A DNA stretch of 64,000 bases from Betaproteobacteria bacterium (GTDB lineage: Bacteria > Pseudomonadota > Gammaproteobacteria > Burkholderiales > Rhodocyclaceae). The notes below the pieces were generated by a model. It worked only from the letters and a program-made list of their open reading frames with translations. It was not told the origin of the DNA and ran no database searches. The stretch covers positions 1 to 64,000 of the forward strand of contig JAHRYW010000009.1 of NCBI GenBank assembly GCA_020621865.1, read 5' to 3'. This document shows, piece after piece, positions 2,808 to 16,171 of this stretch (position 1 is its first letter; each line of letters begins with the position of its first letter). Both the position numbers and the translations under genes were made by a program.

Positions 2808-4096
2808 CAGGCACTTCCTTCGTAAATGATTTTCCATTGACCGTCTTCGCGCAGCCAGTACTGGCGCTTCTTCATCCGGTTGTCGAGATTGTTGCTGCGG
2901 TAATCCTGGTCGAAGGTGACGACGACGACTTCTTCCTTGCCCGGGTTGCGGAACACGGACAGATTGTCGACCTTGACCTTGATCCATTCCTTGCCGGCAT
3001 TGACCTGCTTCTTCTGGGCGGCAAATTCGTTGAAACTCTGTTCGCCGGACTGGAAGCGCTTCGAATAGTGTTTCAGGTAACGGTCGGTATCGCGGCTTTC
3101 CCAGTCGGCGCGCCAGGCGTCGATGGTCTTGTTCAGTTCGCTGCGTTCCCGCGCCCAGTCGTCGAGCGACAGCCATTCGACCGAATTGCTGATGATCACC
3201 GGGGTCAGGCCGACCTGCAGGTTCTTGGCGACGACGTCGAGATCCTGGTTGGTCAGCACGACGCAGCCGTCGGAAGCGCGCGGCGGGCGGGCGAAGGTGT
3301 CGGACGGCGTGCCGTGCAGCCAGATGCCGCTGCCGCTGCGCCCCTGGCGCTTGTCCCACTCGTTCGGGTAGTTCAGCGGATAGGCGCCGCTGCCGTAGAG
3401 GTCGGCCAGCTTTTGGCGGGGCAGGTTGGCCGTCACGTGATAAACGCCGACCGGGGTCTTCTTGTCGCCCTCGACGACTTTCTCGGCGCCCAGCTTGCCC
3501 TGCGTCACGTAGTAATCGGCGATGAAGCGCGGCTGGCCGTCGTGGCTGCGGTCGTTCTCGTACAGGTAAAGGCGCGAGCGCTGGGTGTCGACGACGATGG
3601 CGTAACGCTGGTCCGGCTGCATCTGCAGCAGGTAGCGCGGTACGAAATCGGCCGGTGGCTTCTCGCGATAGGCTTTCAGACGGGCAATCGCCTCGGCGCG
3701 CAGGTCGGCCACCTTGTCGGCCGGGGCGTCGCTGAGGGCGCCGAAGCTGCGGATCGGCTGGGCGCGGGCGAGCAGCAGGTCGCCCTTGATCAGGTTGGCC
3801 AGCCGGTAGTTCGGATGCTGGCGAATCAGCGCCTCAGTCAGTTGCAGCGCGTTGTTCAGGCGGTTGCCTTCGATCTCGGCGAAGATGCGGGCCAGGGTTT
3901 CCTCCGGCCCGACGTCGGAAACGGTGAGCGGGAAACCTGGGTCGGCAGCCAGCATGTCGCGGGCGCTTTGGGCGCTGGACAGCGCTGCGCCGGACTGGCC
4001 GGCAGAGGTGTTCGGTCGGTCGGCCAGCTTGGCCAGGGCGCCGGCAGTAACCGTGGCGGCCACTGCCAGCAGGATGAAGCGGATCTTTACCCTCAC
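2807..4096 (-). CDS. L,D-transpeptidase (YkuD) family protein with NTF2-like C-terminal domain
   Basis: Probable periplasmic peptidoglycan-modifying enzyme of 429 residues. It has an N-terminal hydrophobic segment (about residues 6-20) acting as signal or anchor, a helical region (50-150), then a YkuD catalytic domain (about 160-300) with GIWLHGTP and the catalytic SDGCVV, placing the nucleophile near Cys278 and a histidine near 261. The last ~110 residues form a small NTF2/SnoaL-like domain ending [16 protein letters not shown] chose the GTG at 4096, which overlaps the upstream TPR gene's stop as GTGA; a GTG at 4123 is possible but would lengthen the overlap. Substrate specificity (cross-linking, lipoprotein attachment, or amidase-like) cannot be read from the sequence. 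Confidence 0.85.
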
Positions 4097-5214
4097 CGAG
4101 CGTCTTCGTCCTTGATCAGCCACTTGCCGCCGCTACGAACGAGAGCCAGGGTCTTGGTGGTCGTGCTGTCCATGCCGCGAGCCTGATAGCGTTGGCGGAA
4201 CTTGGCGGTTGCCTTGTCGCCATTGACGACGATTTGCGGCGTGTCGATGGAGACAGAAATCTTGCCACCCTTGCCGGCGATGCGCTTTTCGCGTTCATGT
4301 TCCCAGGCCTTGCGGCTCATGCCCTTGGGCGTGTCGAAATCGCTGGCGTAGGCGCCGAGGTAGGCCTTCATGTCCTTGCGCGACCAGGCGTCGGCCCAGG
4401 CGACGATGGCCTTGGCCACGTCATCGTTGGCGCCGCCAACTGCAGCCTTTTCAGGGGCGGCGGCAGGCGCGGCCGCGACGTTGGCCGGCTTGGCGACCGG
4501 GGCCGGGGAGGTAGCGGCGCCAGCACCGGCGGTCGAGGCGACAACCGTCGCGCTGGCGGCGACCGGGGCGCTCGGCTTGGCGGCTGCCGGTGCCGGGGCA
4601 GCGACCGGGGCGGGGGCTGTTGCCGGAGCGGCGGCTACGGCCGGGGCCGGCGTCGGCTTGACGTTGCCCTTGCCGGAGGTGGTGATCAGGTCGCGGATCA
4701 AGGCCAGCTTGTTCTGGGTTGCGGAATTGGAGTTGTCCAGTTGCAGCGCCTTGTCGTAGGCCTGGCTGGCCAGCTTGGCGTAGACGTCGCCGAGGTTCTC
4801 ATAGGCGATGGCGTAGGACGGATGGGTGCGGATGGCCATTTCCAGCGCGGTGCGGGCCTTGTCGTACTGCTTCTGCTGGGCGTAGAGCACGGCCAGGTTG
4901 TTGTACGGCTCGGGCAGCTCCGGGTAGTCCTCGGACAGCTTGGTGAAGACGGCGATGGCCTCGGCCGGCTTGTTCATTTCGGTGAAGATCAAACCCTTCA
5001 GGAAGCGACCCTGGGCATCCTTGGGGCGGCTGCTCAGGTAGGCGTCGACCTTTTCCATAGCTTGCGGGTATTGGCCCTGCTTGATCAGGCGCTGCACTTC
5101 CGGCAGGTTGTCGGCAAAGGACGGGGCGGCAAAACCGATGGCCAAGCCGATCGCCAGTGCGCGCAACGTCTTGAACTGCTGAAAACGGGGCTGGAGCGGG
5201 GAAGTGGAGGTCAT
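4093..5214 (-). CDS. exported TPR-repeat protein with NTF2-like C-terminal domain
   Basis: Protein of 373 residues with a signal peptide (about 1-35, ending PSFA), four or so tetratricopeptide repeats (about 36-170), a low-complexity Ala/Pro linker of about 80 residues, and a ~110-residue C-terminal domain (WADAWSRKDMKAYLGAY to GGKWLIKDE). That last domain resembles the C-terminal domain of the adjacent L,D-transpeptidase ([21 protein letters not shown] to GQWKIIYEG). It is first in the minus-strand run TPR-LDT-ppiA-ppiB-lpxH-recQ, with its stop overlapping the transpeptidase start. The TPR part probably recruits a partner in the periplasm and may scaffold the enzyme. Start chosen at the ATG giving the signal peptide; longer upstream frames run antisense to cysS. 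Confidence 0.82.
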   Translation of the reverse strand: MTSTSPLQPRFQQFKTLRALAIGLAIGFAAPSFADNLPEVQRLIKQGQYPQAMEKVDAYLSSRPKDAQGRFLKGLIFTEMNKPAEAIAVFTKLSEDYPELPEPYNNLAVLYAQQKQYDKARTALEMAIRTHPSYAIAYENLGDVYAKLASQAYDKALQLDNSNSATQNKLALIRDLITTSGKGNVKPTPAPAVAAAPATAPAPVAAPAPAAAKPSAPVAASATVVASTAGAGAATSPAPVAKPANVAAAPAAAPEKAAVGGANDDVAKAIVAWADAWSRKDMKAYLGAYASDFDTPKGMSRKAWEHEREKRIAGKGGKISVSIDTPQIVVNGDKATAKFRQRYQARGMDSTTTKTLALVRSGGKWLIKDEDAR

Positions 5215-12067: not shown

Positions 12068-13435
12068 ATGGAAACAATCGGCAAATACCGCGTGGTGCGC
12101 GAGCTCGGCAAGGGGGCGACCGCGACGGTCTATCTCTGCGACGACCCCGACAGCAGCCGCCAGGTCGCCGTCAAGGTCATCCGCTTCGGCAAGGACTGCG
12201 CGGCCATGTCACGGCGCATGCGCAAGCTGTTCCAGAACGAAGGGATGGTCTCGAAACGCCTCGACCATCCGAACATTGTCCGTGTCTACGAGGCCATCGT
12301 CGAAGAGGATTTCGCCTACCTGGCCATGGAGTACGTCGACGGTTTCTCGCTTGAGGAGCACACCCGGATCGACCGGCTGCTGCCCATGCACCGGGCGATC
12401 AGCATCATCTTCAAGTGCGCGATGGCACTCGACTCGGCCTATCGCCAGGGCATCATCCACCGCGACATCAAGCCGGCCAACATCATGGTGGCCGCTGGCG
12501 ACGAACCGAAGATCGCCGATTTCGGCCTGGCCTTGAACATGAACAAGGACATGGATCGTGACTCGACCTTCATCATGGGCGTCGGCTCGCCGGCCTACAT
12601 GTCGCCGGAACAGATCAAGGGCTATCCACTCAACCAGAAGACCGACCTCTACTCGCTTGGCGTCCTGCTCTTCCAGCTATTGACCGGGCGCCTGCCCTTC
12701 CGTGCCAACAACCAGGCGACGCTGGTCTATCGCATCATCAACACCGAGGCCCCGGCAGTCACCGCGCTCAAGCCCGATCTGCCCGAAGGTCTCAACGCCA
12801 TCCTGCGCCGGGCCTTGGAAAAAGACCTCTACAACCGCTACCGCAATGGCGCCGAGATGGCCAAGGATCTCTCGGCCGTCCGCTACCAGATCCTCGACGA
12901 GGACGAAACGGCCGACGACACCAGCCGCTTCGAGCGCCTGCGCCGGCTGGAGTTCTTCACCGAATTCGAGAACATCGAAATCTGGGAAGTGCTGCGCGTC
13001 GCCGTCTGGCGTGAAGTCGAGCCCAACGTGGCGCTGATCCGCGAAGGCGACCGCAACAAGTTCTTCGGCATCATCGTTTCCGGCTCGGTCGAGATCTCGA
13101 TCGACGGCAAGGCCCTGTGCCGCCTCGGTGCCAGCGAGCCGGTCGGCGAGGTCGCCTACCTGCATCCGTCCAGCGAGCAGCGCCATGCCACGGCCGTCAC
13201 GCTGGAGCCGACGCTGTTCCTCGAAATCAACGCGGCGGCGCTGGCACTGTCGTCCGAGGAGTTGGTCGAGCGCATGCGTAACGTCCTGCTCGCCCGGCTG
13301 ATCAAGCGCCTGCGCGAAGTGAACAAGATCGCTGCCGCCCAGGGTATGCCGGCCGTCCAAAGCGCCACCGGCTCATTATCCGGCGGCCCGGCGCGGCCGG
13401 GTAGCGGGCTGGGTCTCGAACTGGCGCCGATGTAA
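12068..13435 (+). CDS. Ser/Thr protein kinase with C-terminal cyclic-nucleotide-binding domain
   Basis: Hanks-type cytoplasmic kinase, 455 residues. Kinase domain about 6-275: glycine loop [12 protein letters not shown]-anchoring lysine near 36, catalytic [10 protein letters not shown] (Asp near 133), DFG near 151-153, [10 protein letters not shown] activation segment and [21 protein letters not shown] linker leads to a Crp-like cNMP-binding fold (about 300-420: [22 protein letters not shown], then GEVAYLHP). No transmembrane segment and no HTH, so this is a soluble kinase that a nucleotide or another ligand could gate. The cNMP phosphate cassette is not canonical (GEVAYL, with no clear RTA), so the ligand may not be cAMP. 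Divergent from grpE; ends in a terminator. Confidence 0.9.
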
Positions 13436-13480: not shown

Positions 13481-15100
13481 CTAAACCTTGAAGCGGCCGA
13501 CCAGGCTGCCCAGGCCTTCGGCCAGGCGTTTCAGGTCGTGCGCCGCGCCGGCCGTCTGTTCGACCGTGCCGGAATTCTCGCGGGCCATGCCGGCAATTGC
13601 TTCGATGCTGCTTTCGACATCGCCCGAGAAGCGGCGTTGCTGGTCGGTCGCCGAGGCGATGGCGTCCAGCCCGTGGCCGACTTCAGCCACCGAACCGTTG
13701 GTCGCCTGCAGCACGTTGGATACCGAGGCCACTGCGGTCTGGCTGCTGGCCAGGTGTTCCAGGCCTTCCTCAATGCTGTGCCGGACGGAAACCGACTGGG
13801 CGCTGAGCTGGGCGGTGATGGCGTCGATCTCGCTGGCCGAGCGCGAGGACTTTTCAGCCAGCTTGCGTACTTCGTCGGCAACGACCGCGAAACCGCGCCC
13901 CTGTTCGCCGGCCCGCGCCGCCTCGATGGCGGCATTCAGGGCCAGCAGGTTGGTCTGTTCGGCAATGTCCTTGACCTCGCGGGTCATCAGCGTGATCGAC
14001 TCGGTATTGCGGACGAAGTTGTTGACTGAATCGGCCATTTGCTTGACGGCGCTTTCGACCACTGTCATTTCACCGAGCAGCACGCTCAGATTGCGGGTGC
14101 CTTCGTTGGCGCGGGCCAGGCTTTCCTGCGACTGGTGCTGGACATGCTCGGCGCTCTGGGCGATCGAAGAAATGCTGGAAACCAGTTGCTCGACGGCGGT
14201 GGCCGCCAGGTTCGAGCGTTCGTTCTGTTGCTGCGAGCTCTGTGTCACCCGGTCGGCACTGTCGGACAGGGCGGAAACGCGCGAGGAAACCTGGCTGGCG
14301 GCGTCGCGTACCTGGCGGACCAGCTGGTTGAAATTGTCCATCATCTCATTGAACACCTGGGCCGACTGGCCGACCTCGTCCTTGCCCTTGATCGGCAGGC
14401 GGCGGGTCAGGTCGCCCTCGCCGCGGGCGATGTCGGAGAGGCCGTTGCGCAGGTCTTCGAGCGGCTTGGTCACGAAGTGATGGGTGATCAGGTAGATGAT
14501 GACGAGCAGGGCGCCGAGCGCCCCGAGGGCGACGCCGGCAATCTTCAGGCGGAAGGCGGAGACTTCGGCTTCGACGGAATCAAGCGAGACCTTCATGCTG
14601 ACTACGCCGAGCACCGTGCCGTCAGGCACCTGATGGCAGGCGATGCAGTCCTTGCCGAGGTAGTTCGAGGAGGCCTTGGTCGGGTTGATCACATGCAGGA
14701 AGGAGGCGCCATTGGCCTGTTCGACTGACATGTAGGGCGTGCCGGAGGTCATGACCTGCTTTTCCAGCGCATCGAGCTCGCGTTGGCTCTTGGTGTCCGG
14801 GCCGTAGAGCTTGACGACGGCGTCGCTGCGGGCGACGTGCAGGTCCTTGATGATCGACAACTGCTTGATCTGGTCGAGGAAGACCTCGCGCTGGCCGACG
14901 GTGCCGGTGATCATCATGCCGGTCAGGCCGGCCATGGTCATTTCGTGGATGCTTCTGGCGAAATCCTGGGCCTGGCGTATCGCCGTATCCCGGTTAACTT
15001 GTGTGGTCCAGACGATGGCCCCGGCCCAGATCAGGGCCAGGACGACCCAAATGGCTGCGGTCAGGCGCACCCAGATTTTCAAGTCGGCAAAGCGCGGCAT
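13481..15100 (-). CDS. methyl-accepting chemotaxis protein with periplasmic c-type heme motif
   Basis: Chemoreceptor of 539 residues. TM1 about 11-31, periplasmic sensor about 32-185, TM2 about 186-207, HAMP about 208-262, then the cytoplasmic signalling domain with the hairpin tip [36 protein letters not shown] split over its arms. The sensor contains a covalent-heme motif CIACH (Cys152, Cys155, His156) followed by [18 protein letters not shown]. That arrangement resembles the heme-c sensor domains known from Geobacter chemoreceptors, so it probably senses redox state or a gas ligand. No che genes are nearby, so it feeds a distant array. It lies 33 bases downstream of the EF-hand-type gene. 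Confidence 0.92.
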
Positions 15101-15133: not shown

Positions 15134-16171
15134 TCAGGCGGTCAGATCGATTTGCTGGATTGTGCCAGCCGTTCCGGATTCCTGCAAAAATATTCCAGAA
15201 TTGCGAATATGTCCAAGCATCGCATTGGCATTGGTTTTGATGTCAAATGGTGTGGCGACGCGGCTCAGGGAGATCGCACCGACGCCGGCGGCGGCCAGCG
15301 ACTGAAGCTGGTCCTGGCCTGCGCCGTCGCGGCTCCATAGCTGCAATTGTTCGAAAGCAGAGTCGTTTTCATCAATCCAGCCGTTGCCGTCGCCATCCAG
15401 CGCGGCCAACTCCTGAAAACCGTCGCCGCTGGTCGGGCCGAACAATTCGCTGCCGTTACTGACCTTGCCGTCCTGGTTGCGATCGAAAACCAGGAAGCCG
15501 CTGCCCGGTGCCACAAAGTTGATTTGTTCCTGGTTGCCATCGGCATCCAGGTCGAAGCTGAAGCGCTGGTCGGTCAGTTGCGCCGCCGTGCCGGCAAAGT
15601 TAAGGACCAGCGGGTCCACCTTGCGGGCGGCATCGCCCAGGCGCAGGCTGACGCTGGTTTCCTCGTGGTAGCTCCGGGACATCTCCAGGTTCACGGCAAA
15701 GCTGATTTCCCGGCCATCGCTCGTCGTTACCGTGCCGCTGGCGGCGAAGCTGGTCTGCTCGGTTTCCGTGTAGGACGAATGGTAGTCGTACTCCAGTCCG
15801 TAGCCGGCGGCCGGCGCGGGCGCGCTGGCCTGGGCCGCGGGTGACTGGAGGACGGGAGCGTCGCCGCTGGCCTGCAGGTCGCCGGCGTCGATGACCCGGA
15901 TCCGCTGGCCAGTCATCGCTTCGATCATCAGGCGCAGCAAAAGCAGCTTCGGATCGTTATCGACTGCTGCGTTCTCGTCCTCGGCCGACTGTGCCTTGCC
16001 GGCTTCGGACAGCGAGACATGATCGTTGCCTGGCGCCCGCGGGCGGTTGTCATCGCCGCCTGCTCGCGGGCCGCGCTGCCCGGTCCACATGCGCAGCGAT
16101 TCCTTGACCTCGTGCTGGCGCGTAGCGACGTGCGAGGACTCCATTTGCAGGCTGGCACTGGCGATTTTCAT
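15134..16171 (-). CDS. EF-hand-type calcium-binding protein, function unknown
   Basis: Uncharacterised 345-residue protein. Residues about 1-75 are polar and predicted disordered (MKIASASLQMESSHVATRQ opening). The middle contains a beta-rich domain (SYTETEQTSFAASGTVTTSDG, then DGREISFAVNLEMSRSYHEE). The C-terminal half has three Asp-rich, EF-hand/dockerin-like loops: DLDADGNQEQI, DRNQDGKVSNGSELFG and DGDGNGWIDENDSAF. No signal peptide or TM segment is evident, so if exported it would need a non-Sec route. Similar proteins occur in environmental gammaproteobacteria and betaproteobacteria as hypothetical calcium-binding proteins. The neighbouring chemoreceptor may be cotranscribed. Confidence 0.75.
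   Translation of the reverse strand: MKIASASLQMESSHVATRQHEVKESLRMWTGQRGPRAGGDDNRPRAPGNDHVSLSEAGKAQSAEDENAAVDNDPKLLLLRLMIEAMTGQRIRVIDAGDLQASGDAPVLQSPAAQASAPAPAAGYGLEYDYHSSYTETEQTSFAASGTVTTSDGREISFAVNLEMSRSYHEETSVSLRLGDAARKVDPLVLNFAGTAAQLTDQRFSFDLDADGNQEQINFVAPGSGFLVFDRNQDGKVSNGSELFGPTSGDGFQELAALDGDGNGWIDENDSAFEQLQLWSRDGAGQDQLQSLAAAGVGAISLSRVATPFDIKTNANAMLGHIRNSGIFLQESGTAGTIQQIDLTA

Follow-up and report, generated by a model that had tools for sequence, protein, structure and literature searches.

A putative heme-c Cache chemoreceptor in a Rhodocyclaceae bacterium, distantly related to the heme-bearing receptors of Geobacter

A window of 64,000 nucleotides, the whole stretch of DNA that was analysed, contains a gene on the minus strand encoding a predicted transmembrane chemoreceptor of 539 amino acid (aa) residues. 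A gene for an EF-hand-like protein lies just upstream of it, and a putative Ser/Thr kinase gene converges on it from the other side. The features of the locus are listed below, with coordinates counted from the first letter of the window.

13481..15100, minus strand: chemoreceptor gene, 539 aa, ATG start, encoding in order a transmembrane (TM) segment, a predicted heme-c Cache domain, a second TM segment, HAMP and MCPsignal (ORF, profile scan and hydropathy)
15002..15070, minus strand: TM1, about residues 11-33 (hydropathy; ends approximate)
14543..15001, minus strand: periplasmic single-Cache sensor domain, residues 34-186 (hydropathy, sequence profile, AlphaFold2 model, Foldseek and VIA-align)
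14912..14914, minus strand: Met63, putative distal ligand of the heme; its alignment partner in GSU0582/GSU0935 is Met60 (alignments and conservation)
14633..14647, minus strand: CIACH, putative heme-c attachment motif, residues 152-156, with His156 as the presumed proximal ligand (sequence and conservation)
14474..14542, minus strand: TM2, about residues 187-209 (hydropathy; ends approximate)
14330..14482, minus strand: HAMP domain, residues 207-257 (profile match, E 3.6e-12)
13589..14110, minus strand: MCP signalling domain (MCPsignal), residues 331-504 (profile match, E 1.7e-36)
15134..16171, minus strand: EF-hand-like gene, 345 aa, with several Asp-rich loops, just upstream of the receptor (ORF; co-occurrence)
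12068..13435, plus strand: gene for a Ser/Thr kinase that carries a cNMP-binding domain at its C-terminus; converges on the receptor gene (profile scan)

The succession of TM segment, periplasmic domain, TM segment, HAMP and MCP signalling domain is, in every element, that of a transmembrane methyl-accepting chemoreceptor. Hydropathy maxima were found at residues 13-31 and 187-205. The CIACH motif, which the first-pass annotation had placed at Cys152 to His156 between two TM segments, indeed falls between them, as confirmed by the ORF, the profile scan and hydropathy, and a cytoplasmic placement of the motif was rejected on the same hydropathy profile. Cys152 and Cys155 are the sole cysteines in the whole protein. 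A long linker had also been singled out as a special feature of the receptor; this part is ordinary, and an unusual length was rejected by alignment to the CtpM model, in which receptor residues 168-539 align with positions 184-558 of 558.

A chance occurrence of CxxCH was rejected by shuffling, by conservation and by its single occurrence among the MCPsignal ORFs of the genome. The motif arose in 71 of 200,000 shuffles of the 153-residue sensor segment, and among the 17 MCPsignal places of the 75%-complete genome it is present in one ORF only, which is this receptor (four of the 17 ORFs checked are truncated where the examined stretch stops). Homologous sensors were collected as 177 matching ORFs, giving 158 distinct domains for alignment. 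Cys152, Cys155, His156 and Gly165 are conserved in all 156 distinct domains having residues there, the two remaining rows being pieces in L094 and L089, and Pro140 is conserved in 153 of 157. Because the 30 domains from the genus are closely related, they inflate these and all other conservation counts given here.

Met63 is conserved in 155 of the 156 domains having residues at this position (the two other rows are pieces in L094 and L048). However, 78 of the domains come from 80 contig-collection loci that were picked by a peptide pattern that covers the Met63 position but not CxxCH, and these loci were left uncounted for the conservation of Met63. Once they are set aside, Met63 is found in 79 of 80 domains, namely in 29/29 from the class search, 30/30 genus orthologs and 20/21 others. 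The sole exception, L171, has Lys at this position and carries a Met one place earlier.

Structural modelling of the sensor in AlphaFold2 (monomer, 30 sequences) gave a domain of four strands (model residues 51-58, 90-96, 99-109 and 130-139) with long helices at each end, at a mean pLDDT of 93.9. CIACH is modelled as a short helix (119-123, corresponding to protein residues 152-156) between strands 3 and 4. The top Foldseek match of this model was 3b42, a Geobacter structure whose title names GSU0935 (E 2.3e-6), with WalK and CitA weaker; the rigid-body superposition on 3b42 was poor (rmsd 13.8, TM 0.44). WalK headed the VIA-align matches (Z 13.4, rmsd 2.8, 127 aligned), with CitA and further sensors of the Cache type next; a match to Tll0287 (5b82), a heme protein, had Z 9.4, rmsd 3.9 and 121 aligned. 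The second Geobacter entry, 3b47, was absent among the 50 Foldseek matches listed, as were both 3b42 and 3b47 among the 50 VIA-align matches listed, for which the domain-swapped dimer of the Geobacter crystals may be the reason.

Many of the VIA-align matches are ligand-binding Cache sensors, and a heme in the branch to which this receptor belongs is something that we infer. The sensor could thus be read as an ordinary ligand-binding Cache domain whose CxxCH holds no heme and serves, for example, as a disulfide or metal site. We regard this as very improbable, given that the entire motif including its His is invariant, that it stands at the same structural position as in the sCache_heme proteins, and that the domain shows homology over its whole length to crystallised heme-c domains. 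It is very probable that a single heme is covalently attached to the sensor.

The homology to the crystallised domains emerges at the level of profiles. A phmmer search of the PDB with the sensor sequence alone gave nothing meaningful, and only the search with the family profile gave matches, to 3b47 at E 0.00088 and to 3b42 at E 0.13. Alignment of the family with the Geobacter pair in hhalign extended over 119 columns with a probability of 95.6, an E of 1.1e-8 and 17% identity, amounting to whole-domain profile homology. The receptor sensor scored 16.4 bits (E 0.012) against PF21563 (Mcp40H-20_sensor), missing the cut-off set by its gathering score of 27, compared to 159.8 and 151.8 for the two Geobacter segments; two relatives come near this cut-off, with scores of 25.4 and 24.2 bits. 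As to the identity of the crystallised proteins, 3b47 is assigned to GSU0582 in the available text of PMC12889525, in agreement with the title of 3b42, whereas the assignment of the two entries is reversed in that of PMC3831638.

In HMMER, MAFFT and hhalign alike, Met63 aligned with the first Met of a Met-Met pair in the Geobacter domains. This Met lies 83 (GSU0582) and 84 (GSU0935) residues ahead of the CxxCH His, and is residue 60 in both proteins because the His residues are numbered His143 (GSU0582) and His144 (GSU0935) in the available text of PMC8396549. The receptor shares with GSU0582 and GSU0935 of Geobacter sulfurreducens an MCP output, a periplasmic PAS/Cache fold, one CxxCH towards the C-terminus of the domain and a Met60-aligned Met on the N-terminal helix; unlike them, it has five extra residues directly ahead of CxxCH in the alignment. 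The likeness to Geobacter heme-c chemoreceptors proposed in the first-pass annotation is strongly supported by profile, predicted fold, motif position and the aligned distal Met, and by sequence comparison the sensor domain is a distant relative of the heme-bearing Geobacter receptors already studied.

PF11845 (DUF3365) gave no match on the receptor at E up to 1 in the protein scan, nor in a six-frame search of the genome. Local profile similarity between the receptor sensor family and PF11845 relatives was found over 53 columns (E 3.7e-9; 13 of 15 fetched loci aligned). According to the available text of PMC12889525, GSU0582 and GSU0935 are counted within the DUF3365 family, there named sCache_heme, whose defining trait is a Cache fold that carries CXXCH on a short helix and loop linking strands 3 and 4. 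In its predicted model the receptor shares this placement of the CxxCH helix with sCache_heme and Tll0287-like proteins. It differs from the Tll0287-like stand-alone group in that the axial Cys is missing, there being no cysteine outside CxxCH, and the signalling-type protein described in PMC12889525 likewise appears there without an axial Cys. We file the sensor as a divergent heme-c Cache chemoreceptor domain that by profile belongs in neither PF21563 nor PF11845, and the Geobacter-type heme-c chemoreceptor is thereby extended to a branch under the cut-off of Pfam. Three PF11845 places were observed elsewhere in the same genome (G000:C4:394302-394784, G000:C3:54919-55359 and G000:C15:155169-155525), and both heme-c Cache branches coexist within one organism.

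The machinery for heme c maturation is likely at the disposal of the receptor, given that CcmF_C was found in 8/8 nearly complete congeners checked and Cytochrom_C_asm has four matches in the 75%-complete assembly. One of the latter runs right up to the end of contig 16, which is consistent with a cut CcmF; CcmF_C and ResB themselves gave no match in this 75%-complete genome.

The reading that we favour, and consider fairly probable, is that of a single-Cache heme-c receptor with His156 and Met63 as ligands, the latter an exchangeable sixth ligand, operating a Geobacter-like switch with redox as its main signal. One heme c would be held on the periplasmic Cache domain via Cys152 and Cys155, with His156 as the proximal ligand and Met63 on the N-terminal helix as the likely sixth. 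The heme ligation would be altered when the iron is oxidised or when a gas takes the place of Met63, as proposed for GSU0582/GSU0935. The altered ligation would in turn move the helices running into TM1 and TM2, and HAMP and the MCP hairpin would relay the change to CheA, resulting in redox or gas taxis. Through the receptor, the cell can probably respond to redox conditions or to a gas, for example nitric oxide.

This proposal leans on the Geobacter domains, whose hemes, in the available text of PMC8396549, pass from high-spin in the oxidised to low-spin in the reduced state, a shift that probably arises from binding of Met60. In the reduced heme, Met60 is displaced by CO and NO, and a redox-linked ligand switch is proposed there; the midpoint potentials of the two sensors are -156 and -251 mV, and in the crystals water occupies the distal site of GSU0582 and of one of two GSU0935 hemes (PMC8396549). 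A ligand chemistry like that of Geobacter would be the most economical reading for the present receptor, and redox steering towards electron acceptors, as put forward in the first-pass annotation, may reasonably be inferred from Geobacter; the sign of the response is likewise presumed. Met63 is the exact residue at which the proposed ligand switch becomes testable.

The same heme-c domain may instead have NO (or CO) on the ferrous heme as its physiological signal, leading to NO avoidance or attraction, a reading that we hold to be possible, if unlikely. The Geobacter domains do bind NO and CO (PMC8396549), and in the available text of the 2026 preprint PMC12889525 slow NO release is described for a signalling-type sCache_heme protein and NO sensing is proposed, with NO-sensor properties argued for those sCache_heme members that are fused to signalling modules. 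However, Met63 should compete with NO, and the protein of P. azotoformans differs in this respect, water being suggested as its sixth ligand (PMC12889525). Nor do genomes with the receptor show an excess of NirS: 6 of these 40 gave strong NirS-type (PF02239) matches, versus 45 of the 166 other genomes that bear an MCP (Fisher p 0.15), in a weak test that ignores NirK, NorB and phylogeny and uses a cut-off (E about 1e-100) of our own choice.

A third signal is suggested by DcrA of Desulfovibrio vulgaris, a heme-c chemoreceptor proposed in the available text of PMC8396549 to sense redox potential and oxygen. Compared by description only, DcrA shares with the present receptor the character of a heme-c chemoreceptor, but it also has a cytoplasmic PAS domain (PMC8396549), of which the profile scan of the receptor gave no sign. 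That the same heme-c domain acts as an oxygen (aerotaxis) receptor in the manner proposed for DcrA seems improbable to us, as none of the sCache_heme proteins tested gave a stable oxygen complex, according to the available text of PMC12889525.

With the sensor domain as query, matches at E up to 0.001 were obtained in 40 of 274 class genomes, the source genome included, and in 45 of 80 relatives. To the latter set the genus contributes 48 genomes, of which 39 (source included) hold an ortholog at 66-100% identity, three have a distant match only and six have none. Mean identity to the receptor in 12 genus orthologs was 86.4% for the sensor and 88.1% for the signalling domain, so the two parts of the protein are conserved to a similar degree in the genus. 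A scan of the contig collection confirmed 284 stretches, and the best 80 of the 284, which were kept, include many from Chromatiaceae, Ectothiorhodospiraceae, Rhodocyclales, Stutzerimonas and Pseudoalteromonas. From the plasmid collection came a single record, of Aeromonas caviae, at 32% identity. Among the papers listed in searches of an open-access library, none had a title or abstract start dealing with this receptor branch.

Upstream of the receptor on the same strand follow the EF-hand-like gene, a thioredoxin-2-like gene, hemH and hrcA, and on the other side the convergent kinase stands between the receptor and grpE and dnaK. This gene order is common to the 12 receptor loci read from congeners, although one stops before grpE/dnaK and one is without the EF-hand gene, and the kinase occupies the same place in 17/17 congener loci read. 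Five congeners without a close ortholog retain hrcA, hemH, the kinase, grpE and dnaK and lack both the receptor and the EF-hand gene; thioredoxin has no match at one of these empty sites and only a partial match at another. The five were obtained from eight genomes asked, six of which had a ferrochelatase match, with G296 omitted as its match ran over two contigs; one of the five, G288, has at another place a more distant relative. Late gain and loss are indistinguishable here because hemH identities are lower at the five empty sites (70-76%) than at the 12 receptor-bearing loci (77-87%). None of the 80 loci from other records, where flanks extend to at most 4 kb, shows the genus neighbourhood. 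Since an ortholog is present in 39/48 genus genomes and the neighbourhood is the same in the 12 loci read, a cultured congener could serve to ask whether heme-c Cache receptors guide the cell by redox state, NO or O2.

The EF-hand-type gene had been pointed out beforehand as a neighbour worth study. The ORF is present and accompanies the receptor, standing at 11 of 12 receptor loci and at 0 of 5 sites without it. ORF 15134-16171 had no Pfam or NCBIfam match above cut-off, and a functional connection between the two genes is offered as a suggestion only. A wider reading, which we find doubtful, is that the receptor belongs to a broad and largely unannotated Met-ligated heme-c Cache class, apart from both curated families and feeding chemotaxis, c-di-GMP and HD outputs. 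In the genus the receptor would be a near-core gene and would form with the EF-hand-like protein a calcium- and redox-responsive two-gene module behind ferrochelatase and thioredoxin. Fusions of the same CxxCH Cache sensor type to HD, GGDEF or GGDEF-EAL outputs occur in other genomes (L028, L170, L172, L178 and L184). In a quick tree of 154 sensor domains of at least 130 residues, many forks stay open and many branches are long; no claim depends on it. At locus L094, from a Chromatiaceae metagenome-assembled genome, a receptor of the family is split over two frames (3080-3613 and 3474-4709), possibly owing to an assembly or sequencing error.
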